Below, piece by piece: positions 7,682-33,487 of a DNA stretch of 34,505 nucleotides. The stretch comes from Thermoflexales bacterium. Lineage in GTDB: Bacteria > Chloroflexota > Anaerolineae > J036 > Brachytrichaceae. The notes under the pieces were generated by a model. It did not search any database. It was not told the DNA's origin and saw nothing but the letters and a program-made list of their open reading frames with translations. The position numbers were made by a program, and so were the translations under genes. Location of the stretch: positions 1-34,505 of the forward strand of contig JANWZM010000001.1 in NCBI GenBank assembly GCA_025054635.1, read 5' to 3'. The stretch's first letter is position 1; every line of letters begins with the position of its first letter.

Positions 7682-8485
7682 TTGCAAGCTCGGCGTAAAC
7701 TGAGGGTCACAGTCAATTTTGTCAGTCGTACTTCTCGCTTGGAGCAAGCGCCCGTAGCATACAAGGCATCTGTGCCGAACCTATCGCGCCTATCGTCGGC
7801 GTCGGTCGCCGTATTGGTGCTGCTCAAAGAAATCTTTCTGCTCTCGCTAGAGGGCAGACGGGTTACGCTGATCATCCTGGCAAAACAGTTGGGAGTAACT
7901 CCCCCAGCGATCTCGCGCCGAGCGCAGAAGTTGGTGCGACGGGGCTTGCTGGCGCGCGATGGTGCGTGTGGGTTGCGCTTGACTGAGACTGGGCGAAGGC
8001 TTGCGCTATACGCACTGCGCAAACAGGAAATCTTTGAAGCCTTCTTGGTTTGTACGCTGGGTTACCGTTGGGAGGAGCTAGGTAACGCTGGCGAGAGCGC
8101 GCTGCGCATGGACGACGAGCTTATCGAGCGGATGTACGCGCGCTCAGGTCGCCCAGCGCGCTGTCCGCATGGGCTGCCGATCCCAACTAGGGAGGGTCAG
8201 TTTTCCCTCGGCAACACGGTAGCCCTAGCTGTGCTTTCCCCTGGGCAGGCTGCACGAGTTAGCCACGTGCTGACGCGCGAAGGCACGCTGCTGAGCTATC
8301 TCGCCGAGCTTGGTTTGCGCCCAGGCAACCATGTCACTGTAGTCGAGCACATCCCTTTCGGTGACTTGCTCAAGGTGCGTGTCAATCGGGACGCTGCTGA
8401 TCAAGAACACATCATCAGTGCGGCGCTTGCGCAAATCGTCTTCGCAGAGGTCAATCCAGCGCAGCCTAGTGACACTGCCCGCTGA
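7682..8485 (+). CDS. DtxR/MntR-like regulator with C-terminal FeoA/SH3-like domain and degenerate metal site
   Basis: wHTH LAKQLGVTPPAISRRAQKLVRRGLL...LTETGRRLALYALRKQEIFE; PHGLPIP motif. The track's 7682 start is TTG; GTG 7772 is an alternative. Confidence 0.82.
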   Translation: MQARRKLRVTVNFVSRTSRLEQAPVAYKASVPNLSRLSSASVAVLVLLKEIFLLSLEGRRVTLIILAKQLGVTPPAISRRAQKLVRRGLLARDGACGLRLTETGRRLALYALRKQEIFEAFLVCTLGYRWEELGNAGESALRMDDELIERMYARSGRPARCPHGLPIPTREGQFSLGNTVALAVLSPGQAARVSHVLTREGTLLSYLAELGLRPGNHVTVVEHIPFGDLLKVRVNRDAADQEHIISAALAQIVFAEVNPAQPSDTAR

Positions 8486-28743: not shown

Positions 28744-30147
28744 TTATCCCCCGCTTGGGAACAACCCCAGCAAGCGCGCAAGGCTCGCAGTAACAAACGT
28801 CACGAGGAAGGCTGTGCCCAGTGTGATGACAACGCTGACTGCAGCCCAGAGGCGCGAGCGGGTCTCCTTGTAGATAGTGATGATCGTTGTTGCACAAGGG
28901 TTGTGCAGCAGCGAGAACAGCATCAGGTTCACCGCTGTCAGCAGCGTCCAGCCGTGTTGACCGACAAGCAGGGCGCGGATCGCCTCGGCGCCCTCGGGCG
29001 CCTCGATCATCCGACCAGCACCTGTGTAGATCATCATCATCGTCGGCACGACGATTTCATTGGCAGGGATGGCGATGATGTAAGCGAGAATGATCGTGCC
29101 GTCCAGCCCGAACAACCGCCCGAATCCGTCCAGCGCTTGGGCAATCGCGGATGCCAGGCTGGACTCGCCGAACGGGATGTTGCCGAGCACCCAGATCACC
29201 GCACCGGCAGGTGCAGCTGTGCTCATCGCGCGCAGCAACACAAAGATCGTCCGGTCAATCAGTGAGGTGTACAGAATCCGCAAGATGTTTGGGCGGCGGT
29301 AGGGGGGCAACTCCAGGGTGAAAGCGGAAGCTTCCCCGCGCAGCAGCGTCCGCGACAGCAGCCAGGACATCAGCAGGGTAAAGCCGACGCCGATCAGGAC
29401 AACCGCAACTACCGCGCTGGCAGCGATGAGCGCTGTTGCAGGCCCGCTGAACCCCGCTGCGACAAACACCGTCGCCAGCATGATCAAGGTGGGGAAGCGC
29501 CCGTTGCAGGGCACGAAGTTGTTCGTCAAGATGGCGATCAGTCGCTCGCGCGGCGAGTCAATGATTCGCGTAGCGACCACGCCTGCAGCGTTGCAGCCCA
29601 GCCCCATCGTCATCGTCAGCGCTTGCTTGCCATGCGCCCCAGCTCGCTTGAACAGCCAGTCCAGGTTGAACGCGACGCGCGGTAAGTAGCCCAAATCCTC
29701 TAGGATGGTGAACACCGGGAAGAAGATCGCCATCGGCGGGAACATCACCGAGACGACCCAAGCCAGCCCGAGGTACACCCCGTCCCAGACAAAGCCGGTC
29801 AGCCACCATGGCGCACCGACCTGCTCGAATAAGCTACGCCCCAGGTCACCCAAACCAAACAACAGATTTGCCAGTGCTTCAGAGAGGACGTTCGCTCCCG
29901 AGACTGTCAGCCAGACGACTACTGCGAGCAGCACGAGCATGACGAGCAGACCAGTCACCGGCCCGGTAACGATCTGATCAATCCACTGATCGAGGTCGCG
30001 TCCGCGCTGTCCTCTTGTGTGAACGGCACGACGGGCGATTCGGCTGGCTTCAGCGTAGAGCGTTTGCGCGATCGCGTCACGGAAGTCGGACGGCAGCGCG
30101 CGGCGCAACGCCTCTGCGCGGCTCAGCACGTGCTCAGGCGATGACAT
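28744..30147 (-). CDS. feoB: FeoB membrane (permease) portion, separate gene
   Basis: Gate/core motifs LGCNAAGVVATRIIDSPRERLIAILTNNFVPCNGRFP. ATG 30147 preceded by a GGAGGG Shine-Dalgarno. Confidence 0.92.
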   Translation of the reverse strand: MSSPEHVLSRAEALRRALPSDFRDAIAQTLYAEASRIARRAVHTRGQRGRDLDQWIDQIVTGPVTGLLVMLVLLAVVVWLTVSGANVLSEALANLLFGLGDLGRSLFEQVGAPWWLTGFVWDGVYLGLAWVVSVMFPPMAIFFPVFTILEDLGYLPRVAFNLDWLFKRAGAHGKQALTMTMGLGCNAAGVVATRIIDSPRERLIAILTNNFVPCNGRFPTLIMLATVFVAAGFSGPATALIAASAVVAVVLIGVGFTLLMSWLLSRTLLRGEASAFTLELPPYRRPNILRILYTSLIDRTIFVLLRAMSTAAPAGAVIWVLGNIPFGESSLASAIAQALDGFGRLFGLDGTIILAYIIAIPANEIVVPTMMMIYTGAGRMIEAPEGAEAIRALLVGQHGWTLLTAVNLMLFSLLHNPCATTIITIYKETRSRLWAAVSVVITLGTAFLVTFVTASLARLLGLFPSGG

Positions 30148-30163
30148 CTCGCACCCTCCCTCT

Positions 30164-30997
30164 CTACTGTTGTCCAACGACGGCGATTTGGCGACTCAAG
30201 CGCGACTCGGGCACGTGCTGGCGGCGGGCGATCTCTGCCAGTTCGCCGCTGAGCAGCGCTTGTTGCAGGCGCGCATCGCCATCAAGTAGGCGCAGCGCGA
30301 CCCACCGCGCGTTGGGCAACCCTGGCGCCAACGACTCAATCAGGGGGACAAGCTCGTCCAGCGCGGCTTGGAGCTGCGGGGTGTAGCACACGCGGCGAGG
30401 CTGAGTTTGCAGACGCCCGGCGATCACATCAGCAACGCTGCTGAGCAGCGCCATCACCCCCTCACCGGTGCGCGCGACGATCGGCACGGCTGGCACACCT
30501 AAGTCGCAGCTGAGCGCGCGCGTGTCCACCTCAATTCCCTTGCGCCGCGCTTCGTCGATTAGATTGACCGCGACGACCGCCTTGTCGGTGATCTCCAAAA
30601 TTTGCAAGATCAGGTTCAGGTTGCGTTCGAGCGCGGTCGCATCAGCGACGATGACCGTGCAGTCGGGCTGCCCAAACAGTAGAAAATTGCGCGCCACTTC
30701 CTCGTCCTGCGAGGTGGACAGCAGCGAGTAGGTGCCTGGCAGGTCAACCAGCTTGTAGCGAACGCCGTTGAACTGATACCCGCCCTCTGCTCGGCGGACG
30801 GTCTTGCCAGGCCAGTTGCCGGTGTGCTGCTTCAGTCCTGTCAGCGCGTTGAACAGCGTTGACTTGCCCGTGTTCGGGTTGCCCGCCAACGCGATAACGT
30901 GGTCGAAGCGATCCATCTTGATGCCCATGCGCTCCAGTTGGGCGAAGGCAGGGCAGGTCGCGCACGATTCGCTGGGGACAAATGCAGCGTTCTTCAT
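30164..30997 (-). CDS. feoB: FeoB G-domain (GTPase) portion, separate gene with N-terminal Cys motif
   Basis: ALAGNPNTGKSTLFNALTGLKQHTGNWPGKTV, DLPGTYSL, NLIDEA; N-terminal SCATCPAF; TAG stop before the permease gene. Confidence 0.94.
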   Translation of the reverse strand: MKNAAFVPSESCATCPAFAQLERMGIKMDRFDHVIALAGNPNTGKSTLFNALTGLKQHTGNWPGKTVRRAEGGYQFNGVRYKLVDLPGTYSLLSTSQDEEVARNFLLFGQPDCTVIVADATALERNLNLILQILEITDKAVVAVNLIDEARRKGIEVDTRALSCDLGVPAVPIVARTGEGVMALLSSVADVIAGRLQTQPRRVCYTPQLQAALDELVPLIESLAPGLPNARWVALRLLDGDARLQQALLSGELAEIARRQHVPESRLSRQIAVVGQQ

Positions 30998-30999
30998 CG

Positions 31000-32010
31000 T
31001 CAGTAATGCGCAATCGGTCGGACAAGGATGTGGTCAGCCTGCTCCTTGCGCAGAGCGATCAGCGTGCCTCGCACGCGATAAGCGCGCGGCTCACCGACGA
31101 ACGTCTGCATCTCTGGTCGGACGGTTGCGCCAACTGTCAGCCCGAGGTCGAGCAGCCGTCGGCGCGTCAGTCCTTGCAGTGCCGGGTCAATCTGGACAAC
31201 TTCACCCTCTCGGTGCAGGGGCAACTTCGAGAGCGGCAAGGCGTCGCCGTCGAAAACTCGCTCTGTCGGCAGCAGTGGGCTAACGCTGACGTTTGCGGCA
31301 ATGGCAGGTGCAAGACGATACTCGTTCTCGCCATCGCTGATGGTCAGACGCTGCGGGGTTCGCTCCAGCACGCGCACTGTCTGACCGAGCTTCAAGCCTG
31401 CCGCAGCGATCTGCTGGTAGGCAACTGCAGGCTCATCCTCGATGTGCACGATCCGCCCTGGCTCGTCCGTGGGCCAGTCGGTGAGCGGGCAAGACGCACG
31501 GCTTGGCATCTCGCCAGCGCGATCAGGGATCGGATCGCCGTGGGGATCTTGCTGAGGGTATCCCAGATTTGCTTCGAGTGCCTCAACCTCCGCCTCACTC
31601 AAGGTGTGCTCGCGACGGTGTGCCTCGGCGTGAATTTGTGCCAGCGGCATCCTCGCCTCATCTGCAAGGTAGCGCTCCCACAGCCGATGGGCGCGCAGCA
31701 CGTTCAACGCCCAGCGCTCACCAGCAGGCGTCAAGTGAAGCTGCTCCGCACGCGACTGGAGCAAGCCTTGCGCTTCCATCCGCTCAATCAGCCGAACGGT
31801 CTGCGCCCGAGACAGCCCCAGTGCCCCACTCAACGACTCTGGCGAAGCGTGCCGCCCCTGGTGCTCGCGGTTGAGCAAGTGCTTGAGCGCGTCCTCGACT
31901 TGCTCGCGCTCTTGCTGTGCTCGCCAGGCACGATAGCTCGCTGCAAGCCTGCTCCTTAATGCGAGGGCGAGCAACCCTGCGAGTAGCACAACAGGGATCA
32001 ACCACTCCAT
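31000..32010 (-). CDS. Membrane-anchored DtxR-family regulator with two C-terminal FeoA-like domains
   Basis: N-terminal TM (MEWLIPVVLLAGLLALAL), wHTH (ESLSGALGLSRAQTVRLIERMEAQGLL), metal site VLRAHRLWERYL...HAEAHRREH, PHGDPIP, FeoA RRRLLDLGLTVGATV; 2 nt from the feoB G-domain. Confidence 0.88.
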   Translation of the reverse strand: MEWLIPVVLLAGLLALALRSRLAASYRAWRAQQEREQVEDALKHLLNREHQGRHASPESLSGALGLSRAQTVRLIERMEAQGLLQSRAEQLHLTPAGERWALNVLRAHRLWERYLADEARMPLAQIHAEAHRREHTLSEAEVEALEANLGYPQQDPHGDPIPDRAGEMPSRASCPLTDWPTDEPGRIVHIEDEPAVAYQQIAAAGLKLGQTVRVLERTPQRLTISDGENEYRLAPAIAANVSVSPLLPTERVFDGDALPLSKLPLHREGEVVQIDPALQGLTRRRLLDLGLTVGATVRPEMQTFVGEPRAYRVRGTLIALRKEQADHILVRPIAHY

Positions 32011-32032
32011 AATTTAGGCTTGCCTAAATTAT
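32009..32032. promoter_or_regulatory. Perfect palindromic operator candidate (DtxR/IdeR-like box) over the feo operon start
   Basis: ATAATTTAGGC-TT-GCCTAAATTAT, 11-bp perfect arms; overlaps minus-strand -10 TATAAT (32033-32028) and the ATG (32010-32008). Confidence 0.82.
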
Positions 32033-32140
32033 AGCGCAGCGGCACTGCGTGCACCAAGCTGAGCTGCGGACAAAGCGCAACAAGACCTGATGGCGCAGGG
32101 TCTCTCAGTCATTTGTCTGTGCGGCGTATGATGTTCACGC

Positions 32141-33487
32141 ATGGCATCTGTCGTAGAGACTGCCCCTTATGCCGACCAGCGCGCCACAGGCGTTTACCAC
32201 CAAGTCGATGTTCCCCGCAACGTCGTTGCTTTCACTGCTGACATGGCAGCGTTCATGGTGGGCACATACTTCATTCCCGCCACCACTGTTCTGGTCGGCT
32301 TAGCTGCGCAGCTTACTGATGACAAGACGCTGATTGGCGCTGTGGGGATGGCTTGGCCTGTCTCGTGGTTTCTGCCGCAGCTCATTGCAGCACAAATCGT
32401 TCGGGGGAGACGGTGGCAGAAGCCCTACCTGGTTGTTCCGAGCCTGCTAGGGCGGAACGCGTTTCTGCTGATCGCGCTTTGGCTTCTGATTACCCAAGCC
32501 CAGGCGCCTGTGCTGACGATTTGGGTGTTGATCGGGGGCATTGCGCTGTTCAACCTATGCGATGCACTGGCTGGGGTTGCCTGGTTCGACATGCTCAGTC
32601 GGGCGCTCTCGCCGCGGGTGCGGGCGCGCGCTGTGTCTGTTGGCCAATTCGTGGGCGCTGTGCTTGGCGTTGGCGCTGGCATTATCGTTGAGCGTGTGCT
32701 CTCGCCACAAGGGTTGCCCTTCCCGCAAAACTACGCCCTCATCTTCGGCTGCACGTGGGTGTGCATGATGCTATCGCTGGGCTTGATCGCGCTGGTGCGC
32801 GAAACCCCGATGGACGAGACAGAAAGCGCCCACGCGCAGCGCCAAGGTTTTGTCCGTAGTCTGTTTGAGGCGTTGCGCACAGATCGCCTGTTCGTGCGAG
32901 TGCTTGTGGTGCGCTTGTTGACTGGGGTTGAGCTGATGGCAGCCTCGTTCTACTTGGTCTTCGCTCGCGATCAGCTCGGGTTAGGGAATTCAGCCACAGG
33001 CATTTTCAACATGGCGCTCATCATCGGGGGGATTGTAGGGATCGCGCTGTTTGGCTGGGTCGCTGATCGCTTCACGGCGCTCGGCGTGCTTCGCACAGCC
33101 GCGTTCATGCAGTTGCTTGCCCCATGCATTGCGTTCGCGTTCGTCTTCGTCAGCGCGGATGGGATATGGCAACTTGTCGGGTTGATCGCGTTCGTGATCG
33201 TGTTTGCCTTGCGCGGTGCGATAGAGCACTCGTTAGTGATAGGCGTCGTCGGCTACCTGCTTGACGCGGCTGCGGAGCGCCACCGAGCGATGTATGTCGG
33301 CGCGCTGAACACCCTTGGCGGCATTGTCGCGCTCTCTCCGCTGCTTGGCGGCGTCTGGCTGGATGGGCTTTCAGCAACTGGGCAGGGTGAGCTAGGGTAC
33401 GCCGTGATGTTTGGCGGCGTTGCGCTGATTGCTGGCACGGGGGCGTGGCTCAGCCTGAAGCTGCCGCGCGTTTCCAGACAACCTTGA
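32141..33487 (+). CDS. MFS transporter
   Basis: Twelve-TM-like hydrophobic pattern; GIVGIALFGWVADRFTALGVL loop. Confidence 0.85.
   Translation: MASVVETAPYADQRATGVYHQVDVPRNVVAFTADMAAFMVGTYFIPATTVLVGLAAQLTDDKTLIGAVGMAWPVSWFLPQLIAAQIVRGRRWQKPYLVVPSLLGRNAFLLIALWLLITQAQAPVLTIWVLIGGIALFNLCDALAGVAWFDMLSRALSPRVRARAVSVGQFVGAVLGVGAGIIVERVLSPQGLPFPQNYALIFGCTWVCMMLSLGLIALVRETPMDETESAHAQRQGFVRSLFEALRTDRLFVRVLVVRLLTGVELMAASFYLVFARDQLGLGNSATGIFNMALIIGGIVGIALFGWVADRFTALGVLRTAAFMQLLAPCIAFAFVFVSADGIWQLVGLIAFVIVFALRGAIEHSLVIGVVGYLLDAAAERHRAMYVGALNTLGGIVALSPLLGGVWLDGLSATGQGELGYAVMFGGVALIAGTGAWLSLKLPRVSRQP

Follow-up and report, generated by a model that had tools for sequence, protein, structure and literature searches.

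The perfect palindrome that heads a split feoB operon in the window analysed here (the whole stretch of 34,505 nucleotides) is a genuine, widely conserved DtxR-family operator, for which binding by a regulator is predicted; on present evidence it is probably an MntR-type operator, read by a soluble MntR and controlling a manganese (possibly manganese and iron) importer built on a two-piece FeoB. The unit and its immediate surroundings comprise the following features:

28744..30177, minus strand: membrane half of FeoB, a separate gene (Gate 1.1e-28, FeoB_C 8.4e-15)
30164..30997, minus strand: N-terminal GTPase half of FeoB, a separate gene here and in relatives (FeoB_N 5.4e-59)
31000..32010, minus strand: membrane-anchored DtxR-FeoA fusion, hereafter mDtxR (domain search, AF2 model, fold matches)
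32009..32032, no strand assigned: operator, a perfect 11-2-11 palindrome, unique in the window and in its own genome, with conserved counterparts heading orthologous operons
32019..32022, minus strand: predicted transcription start region, placed from the position of the -10 box; many genes of this genome have similar near-leaderless -10 boxes
32028..32033, minus strand: -10 hexamer TATAAT, five of whose six bases fall within the upstream arm of the palindrome, with the same junction in congeners
32141..33487, plus strand: MFS gene in divergent orientation, at 108 bp from the box (MFS_1 1.6e-9), probably outside the unit

The first gene of the operon encodes mDtxR, a protein of 336 aa with an N-terminal transmembrane helix followed by a wHTH, a DtxR metal-binding and dimerisation domain, an SH3-like domain and a FeoA domain. 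The earlier identification of this gene product as a membrane-anchored DtxR-type protein is borne out by the domain search, by the AF2 model (mean pLDDT 81), in which the wHTH fold is modelled, and by the best fold matches, which are Mn-dependent repressors and IdeR. The order mDtxR, GTPase half, membrane half is shared with relatives, including three Gemmatimonadota genomes, and the splitting of FeoB (28744-30997, minus strand) is itself a conserved arrangement (loci L001-L004 and L025-L036). The membrane half carries the core motif GLGCNAAG...PCNGRFP and finds no match in the PDB. Control of the divergent MFS gene by the box was considered and rejected, as this neighbourhood is not conserved: no MFS relative stands beside the operon in the congeners (L026 and L027).

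The palindrome at 32009-32032 reads ATAATTTAGGC TT GCCTAAATTAT, two perfect 11-bp arms around a 2-nt centre, exactly as the first-pass annotation had described it, and its core reads TTTAGGC-AA-GCCTAAA on the minus strand. It is the only perfect inverted repeat of the window with arms of at least 11 and a loop no longer than 6, a kind of repeat expected by chance at a mean of 0.07 per simulated window (30 first-order Markov sequences of equal length). The DtxR/IdeR box is TTAGGTTAGCCTAACCTAA; the half-sites TTAGG...CCTAA and their 4-nt gap are arranged here like a single dimer site in the tox operator, but the second, offset half-site is missing, so that only one dimer site is left, and both the targets and the metal ligands described below point to manganese. 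The 2.69 Mb assembly contains the exact pattern TTTAGN6CTAAA a single time, at this very site, and the wider set of box-bearing iron genes that had been envisaged was not found in this genome. Searching the whole genome for TTTAGGCNNGCCTAAA with 3 mismatches allowed is uninformative, since this returns fewer matches than the reversed control (44 against 55); the relaxed core with 1 mismatch is likewise rarer than its control (9 against 25), so that the exact site alone counts in this genome.

With at most one mismatch, TTTAGN6CTAAA lies directly upstream of 42 of the 75 orthologous operons (reversed control, 3 of 75); in 14 more it precedes the soluble DtxR gene that itself precedes mDtxR, and in another two (G280 and G179) it lies beyond the stretch first fetched, so that about 58 of the 75 operons are headed by the box in all. 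Eight genomes, this one (G000) among them, have one box each, always at this operon (the others being G003, G073, G105, G081, G085, G192 and G240). In both sequenced congeners the single box of the genome stands before this operon, the ATG follows it after 0-1 nt, and the TATAAT-TTAG junction is identical. Conservation in the congeners and over about 58 of 75 operons marks the palindrome as a genuine DtxR-family operator, which agrees with the original proposal of such an operator lying over promoter and start. At three Gemmatimonadota loci there are two boxes, the second abutting the ATG. In two loci of another family (L035 and L040, genomes G105 and G081) the ATG abuts the box, and the 6-nt spacer of the box is Shine-Dalgarno-like (GGGGAGG or AGGAGG), so that operator and ribosome-binding site would coincide there. 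Long perfect palindromes with arms of 17-30 bp and no relation to the box sequence are seen upstream of mDtxR (L039, L048 and L040).

The claim that TATAAT and the start codon each lie in one arm is confirmed to within a base: on the minus strand the hexamer runs from 32033 to 32028, with its first T one base beyond the arm, and the start codon of mDtxR occupies 32010-32008, with A and T within the opposite arm and G immediately beyond it. The usual spacing between a -10 box and the transcription start is 6-7 nt; transcription would thus begin near 32021, and the leader, about 9-12 nt long, would have no Shine-Dalgarno sequence, in agreement with the very short leader proposed earlier. The hexamer begins 23 nt 5' of the mDtxR ATG; -10 signals in this genome peak at 14 and 17, and no good sigma-70 -35 partner for it was found in a promoter scan. 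A -10-like hexamer stands 11-25 nt before the ATG in 19 of 150 sampled genes of this genome, and the -10/ATG geometry of the operon is not special in it. Such -10 signals near starts, with a TAtaaT pattern, are described in Chloroflexi among others (PMC3160421). In another genus (g68; loci L081, L085, L086 and L092) there is no box, and the mDtxR ATG is preceded at about 13-16 nt by a TATAAT-like hexamer, which makes leaderless transcripts likely.

Perfect inverted repeats can also form hairpins, and eight other perfect repeats with arms of at least 11 occur in 252 kb sampled from this genome; it is nevertheless highly improbable that the palindrome works as RNA (a hairpin or attenuator) or is a chance repeat. 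With the -10 box inside one arm, the transcript would carry the other arm alone, and no run of T follows the palindrome. Moreover, over 56 aligned boxes the core is constant and both arms are near-invariant, at variable distances from the start.

The question then is which protein reads the box. The first-pass annotation had proposed autorepression by the membrane protein, namely that mDtxR binds the palindrome, represses its own operon and senses Fe(II) or Mn(II). The metal and dimer domain of mDtxR is intact, its wHTH is recognisable in the model, and the palindrome, the only such site in the genome, stands before the very operon that encodes mDtxR; this reading is still rather unlikely, as the DNA-binding part of mDtxR diverges over a constant box. 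Its recognition helix shows a mean pairwise identity of 29%, against 58% for the metal domain, and is often acidic, with a net charge of zero or below in 77% of cases; such hypervariability opposite an unchanging box speaks against mDtxR as its general reader. PF01325 is recognised in ten out of ten soluble paralogues but only in 5 of 55 mDtxR orthologues, and there weakly (best E 0.0016), with no match in the mDtxR of the window. In comparison, the recognition helix of the soluble MntR-like paralogue, encoded in this genome on contig C238, is near-invariant, V(S/T)AASVTGML(K/R)KLAEL.

The distribution of the box follows the soluble paralogue as well: the box is present in 51 of 55 genomes that have this paralogue and in 4 of 15 that do not (p=7e-7 with genomes treated as independent; 51 of 54 and 4 of 16 if the borderline genome G194 is rescored as lacking it). 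The four box-bearing genomes without it (G081, G116, G190 and G295) are assemblies only 78-91% complete, whereas the box is absent from the genomes without it that are at least 95% complete (G131, G199, G079 and G160). Two of the four reverse exceptions are G027 and G117, where MntR, TroA and mDtxR form one cluster whose head lies upstream, at MntR-TroA. A point in favour of autorepression comes from G081, where no PF02742 protein other than mDtxR was found and the mDtxR ATG directly adjoins the box, but this assembly is 90% complete and its congener G105 has the soluble paralogue. Within the window's genus, the mDtxR helix is moderately to fairly conserved, and in the window protein it is slightly basic (net +1), so that mDtxR of this genus may still bind DNA.

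The identity of the metal is suggested by what the box controls in relatives and by what the operon replaces. In eight same-family genomes that lack the operon (G041, G138, G208, G228, G119, G156, G099 and G248), the box lies just upstream of a gene for a TroA-like substrate-binding protein (SBP), whose closest solved chain is TroA itself (3.8e-93), and in two others of the family (G185 and G197) it lies upstream of an NRAMP (MntH) gene. TroA-type proteins can carry zinc too. The boxes before TroA genes are paired in five of these genomes, 31-34 bp apart (L118-L122; G208, G119, G228, G138 and G041), a spacing that suggests cooperative binding of two dimers. No NRAMP was found in the window's genus, which has a single ZnuA-family SBP, with a His-rich loop in this genome's copy.

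Replacement was assessed over 144 members of the class that have a soluble MntR-like paralogue, 56 with mDtxR and 88 without. TroA or a high-scoring NRAMP accompanies 9 of the 56 and 60 of the 88, respectively (p=8e-10), in a contingency test that treats genomes as independent, with score thresholds for presence chosen by the analyst and many genomes incomplete; counted per genus, a rough correction for relatedness, the difference is weaker but still significant (6 of 34 against 30 of 51, p=3e-4). Swaps are also seen inside single genera (g34, g40, g42, g53 and g105), where mDtxR occurs in one species and TroA or NRAMP in a second. The gene for the soluble MntR-like protein is an immediate neighbour of mDtxR in 18 genomes, of TroA in 9 and of NRAMP in 12. 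There are furthermore apparent DtxR-NRAMP fusions, in which a single open frame of 765-787 aa holds both an mDtxR-like stretch and an NRAMP transporter:

G112, contig C61, 884-3064: DtxR-NRAMP open frame
G092, contig C332, 1611-3767: DtxR-NRAMP open frame
G030, contig C1, 1746600-1748741: DtxR-NRAMP open frame

Taken together, the box targets, the replacement pattern, the gene linkage and the DtxR-NRAMP frames point to manganese, and the original iron reading becomes less likely, the family's box preceding the TroA and NRAMP importers that the operon replaces.

The metal ligands fit neither classical model in full. In mDtxR, Asp40, His108, Glu112, His127, Glu134 and His135 are kept in essentially all 75 sequences, and the PF02742 equivalents of His79, Glu83, His98, Glu105 and His106 are retained across them. 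The position of DtxR Met10 is Asp in mDtxR and Asp (Asn in some) in the soluble paralogue; that of Cys102 is Glu, Asp or His in 70 of 75 mDtxR sequences, His in the window protein and Glu or Asp in the soluble paralogue, so that both proteins lack the Met10/Cys102 ligands of the IdeR type. The canonical site of Bacillus subtilis MntR (Asp8, Glu11, His77, Glu99, Glu102 and His103) is likewise incomplete, the other ligands being present: Lys stands at the Glu11 position of both, and that of Glu99 is His in the window protein and Glu in the soluble paralogue. DR2539 of Deinococcus radiodurans (PDB 8pvt and 8pw0), the closest solved relative of the window mDtxR by sequence, also has Lys at the Glu11 position and answers to both manganese and iron (PMC3327659), which makes a dual response possible for the present operator. 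Membership of the FeoB family and this precedent are what favour an IdeR-type iron operator, with the soluble paralogue sensing Fe(II) and the split FeoB importing iron. Against the absent IdeR-type ligands and the TroA and NRAMP targets of the box, that reading is unlikely; in addition, the second, classical FeoB of this genome (contig C232, core GCNVPA...SCPARL) has neither a Fur-type nor a DtxR box in the 183 bp read before it.

In the favoured manganese scheme, the operator lies over the -10 box, the putative transcription start and the start codon. With enough Mn(II) (and possibly also Fe(II)) in the cell, the soluble MntR from C238 would bind it as a dimer loaded with metal and block RNA polymerase; when the metal is scarce, this repressor would leave, and a short-leader mRNA for mDtxR and the two-piece FeoB would be made. 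The operon would thereby serve as the manganese importer, a role played by TroABC or MntH in related genomes, and mDtxR would more likely serve FeoB as a metal sensor on the transporter side, or as its FeoA partner, than act as the main reader of the box.

Annotation assigns FeoB proteins to iron transport almost as a matter of course. It may be proposed, tentatively, that this operon represents a widespread manganese importer in which a two-piece FeoB is joined by a membrane-tethered DtxR-FeoA protein that has given up DNA binding to become a manganese sensor at the transporter, while a soluble MntR reads the box over promoter and start, the whole swapping with TroABC and MntH among close relatives. 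If this is true, the metal assignments of feo operons would change in many uncultivated bacteria. The operator and the swap pattern would together allow a large FeoB subgroup to be called manganese-type from sequence alone, and the operon would offer a concrete test of how FeoA and a membrane-bound DtxR module affect the FeoB channel.

No description of a unit combining a membrane DtxR-FeoA protein with a split FeoB was found in a literature search of partial coverage. The unit is best read as analogous to PgMntR/FeoB2 of Porphyromonas gingivalis, which would be its nearest precedent; PgMntR is a DtxR-family regulator with twin C-terminal FeoA domains, encoded in one operon with a manganese-carrying FeoB, whose promoter it binds, and having Asp in place of DtxR Met10 (PMC4805248). 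Twin FeoA-type domains on a DtxR protein encoded beside feoB are found in mDtxR too. By comparison, mDtxR is anchored, while no membrane anchor is mentioned for PgMntR; PgMntR binds the promoter itself, whereas here the box is more probably read by a separate, soluble MntR; and in the present operon FeoB is split and the operator is defined (PMC4805248). DR2539 represses mntH at an inverted repeat in a manner dependent on Mn and Fe, but is soluble and has an NRAMP rather than a FeoB as its target (PMC3327659). In Treponema, TroR is a DtxR-type Mn/Fe repressor of the TroABC importer, and the T. pallidum tro operator overlaps its promoter as the present one does, though the operator sequence is another and no FeoB is involved (PMC2628430); the tro operator of T. 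denticola was considered as a match to the box and rejected, its sequence being different. Within the window itself, a further, degenerate gene of the DtxR family lies at 7823-8359 on the plus strand, with its metal ligands largely lost.
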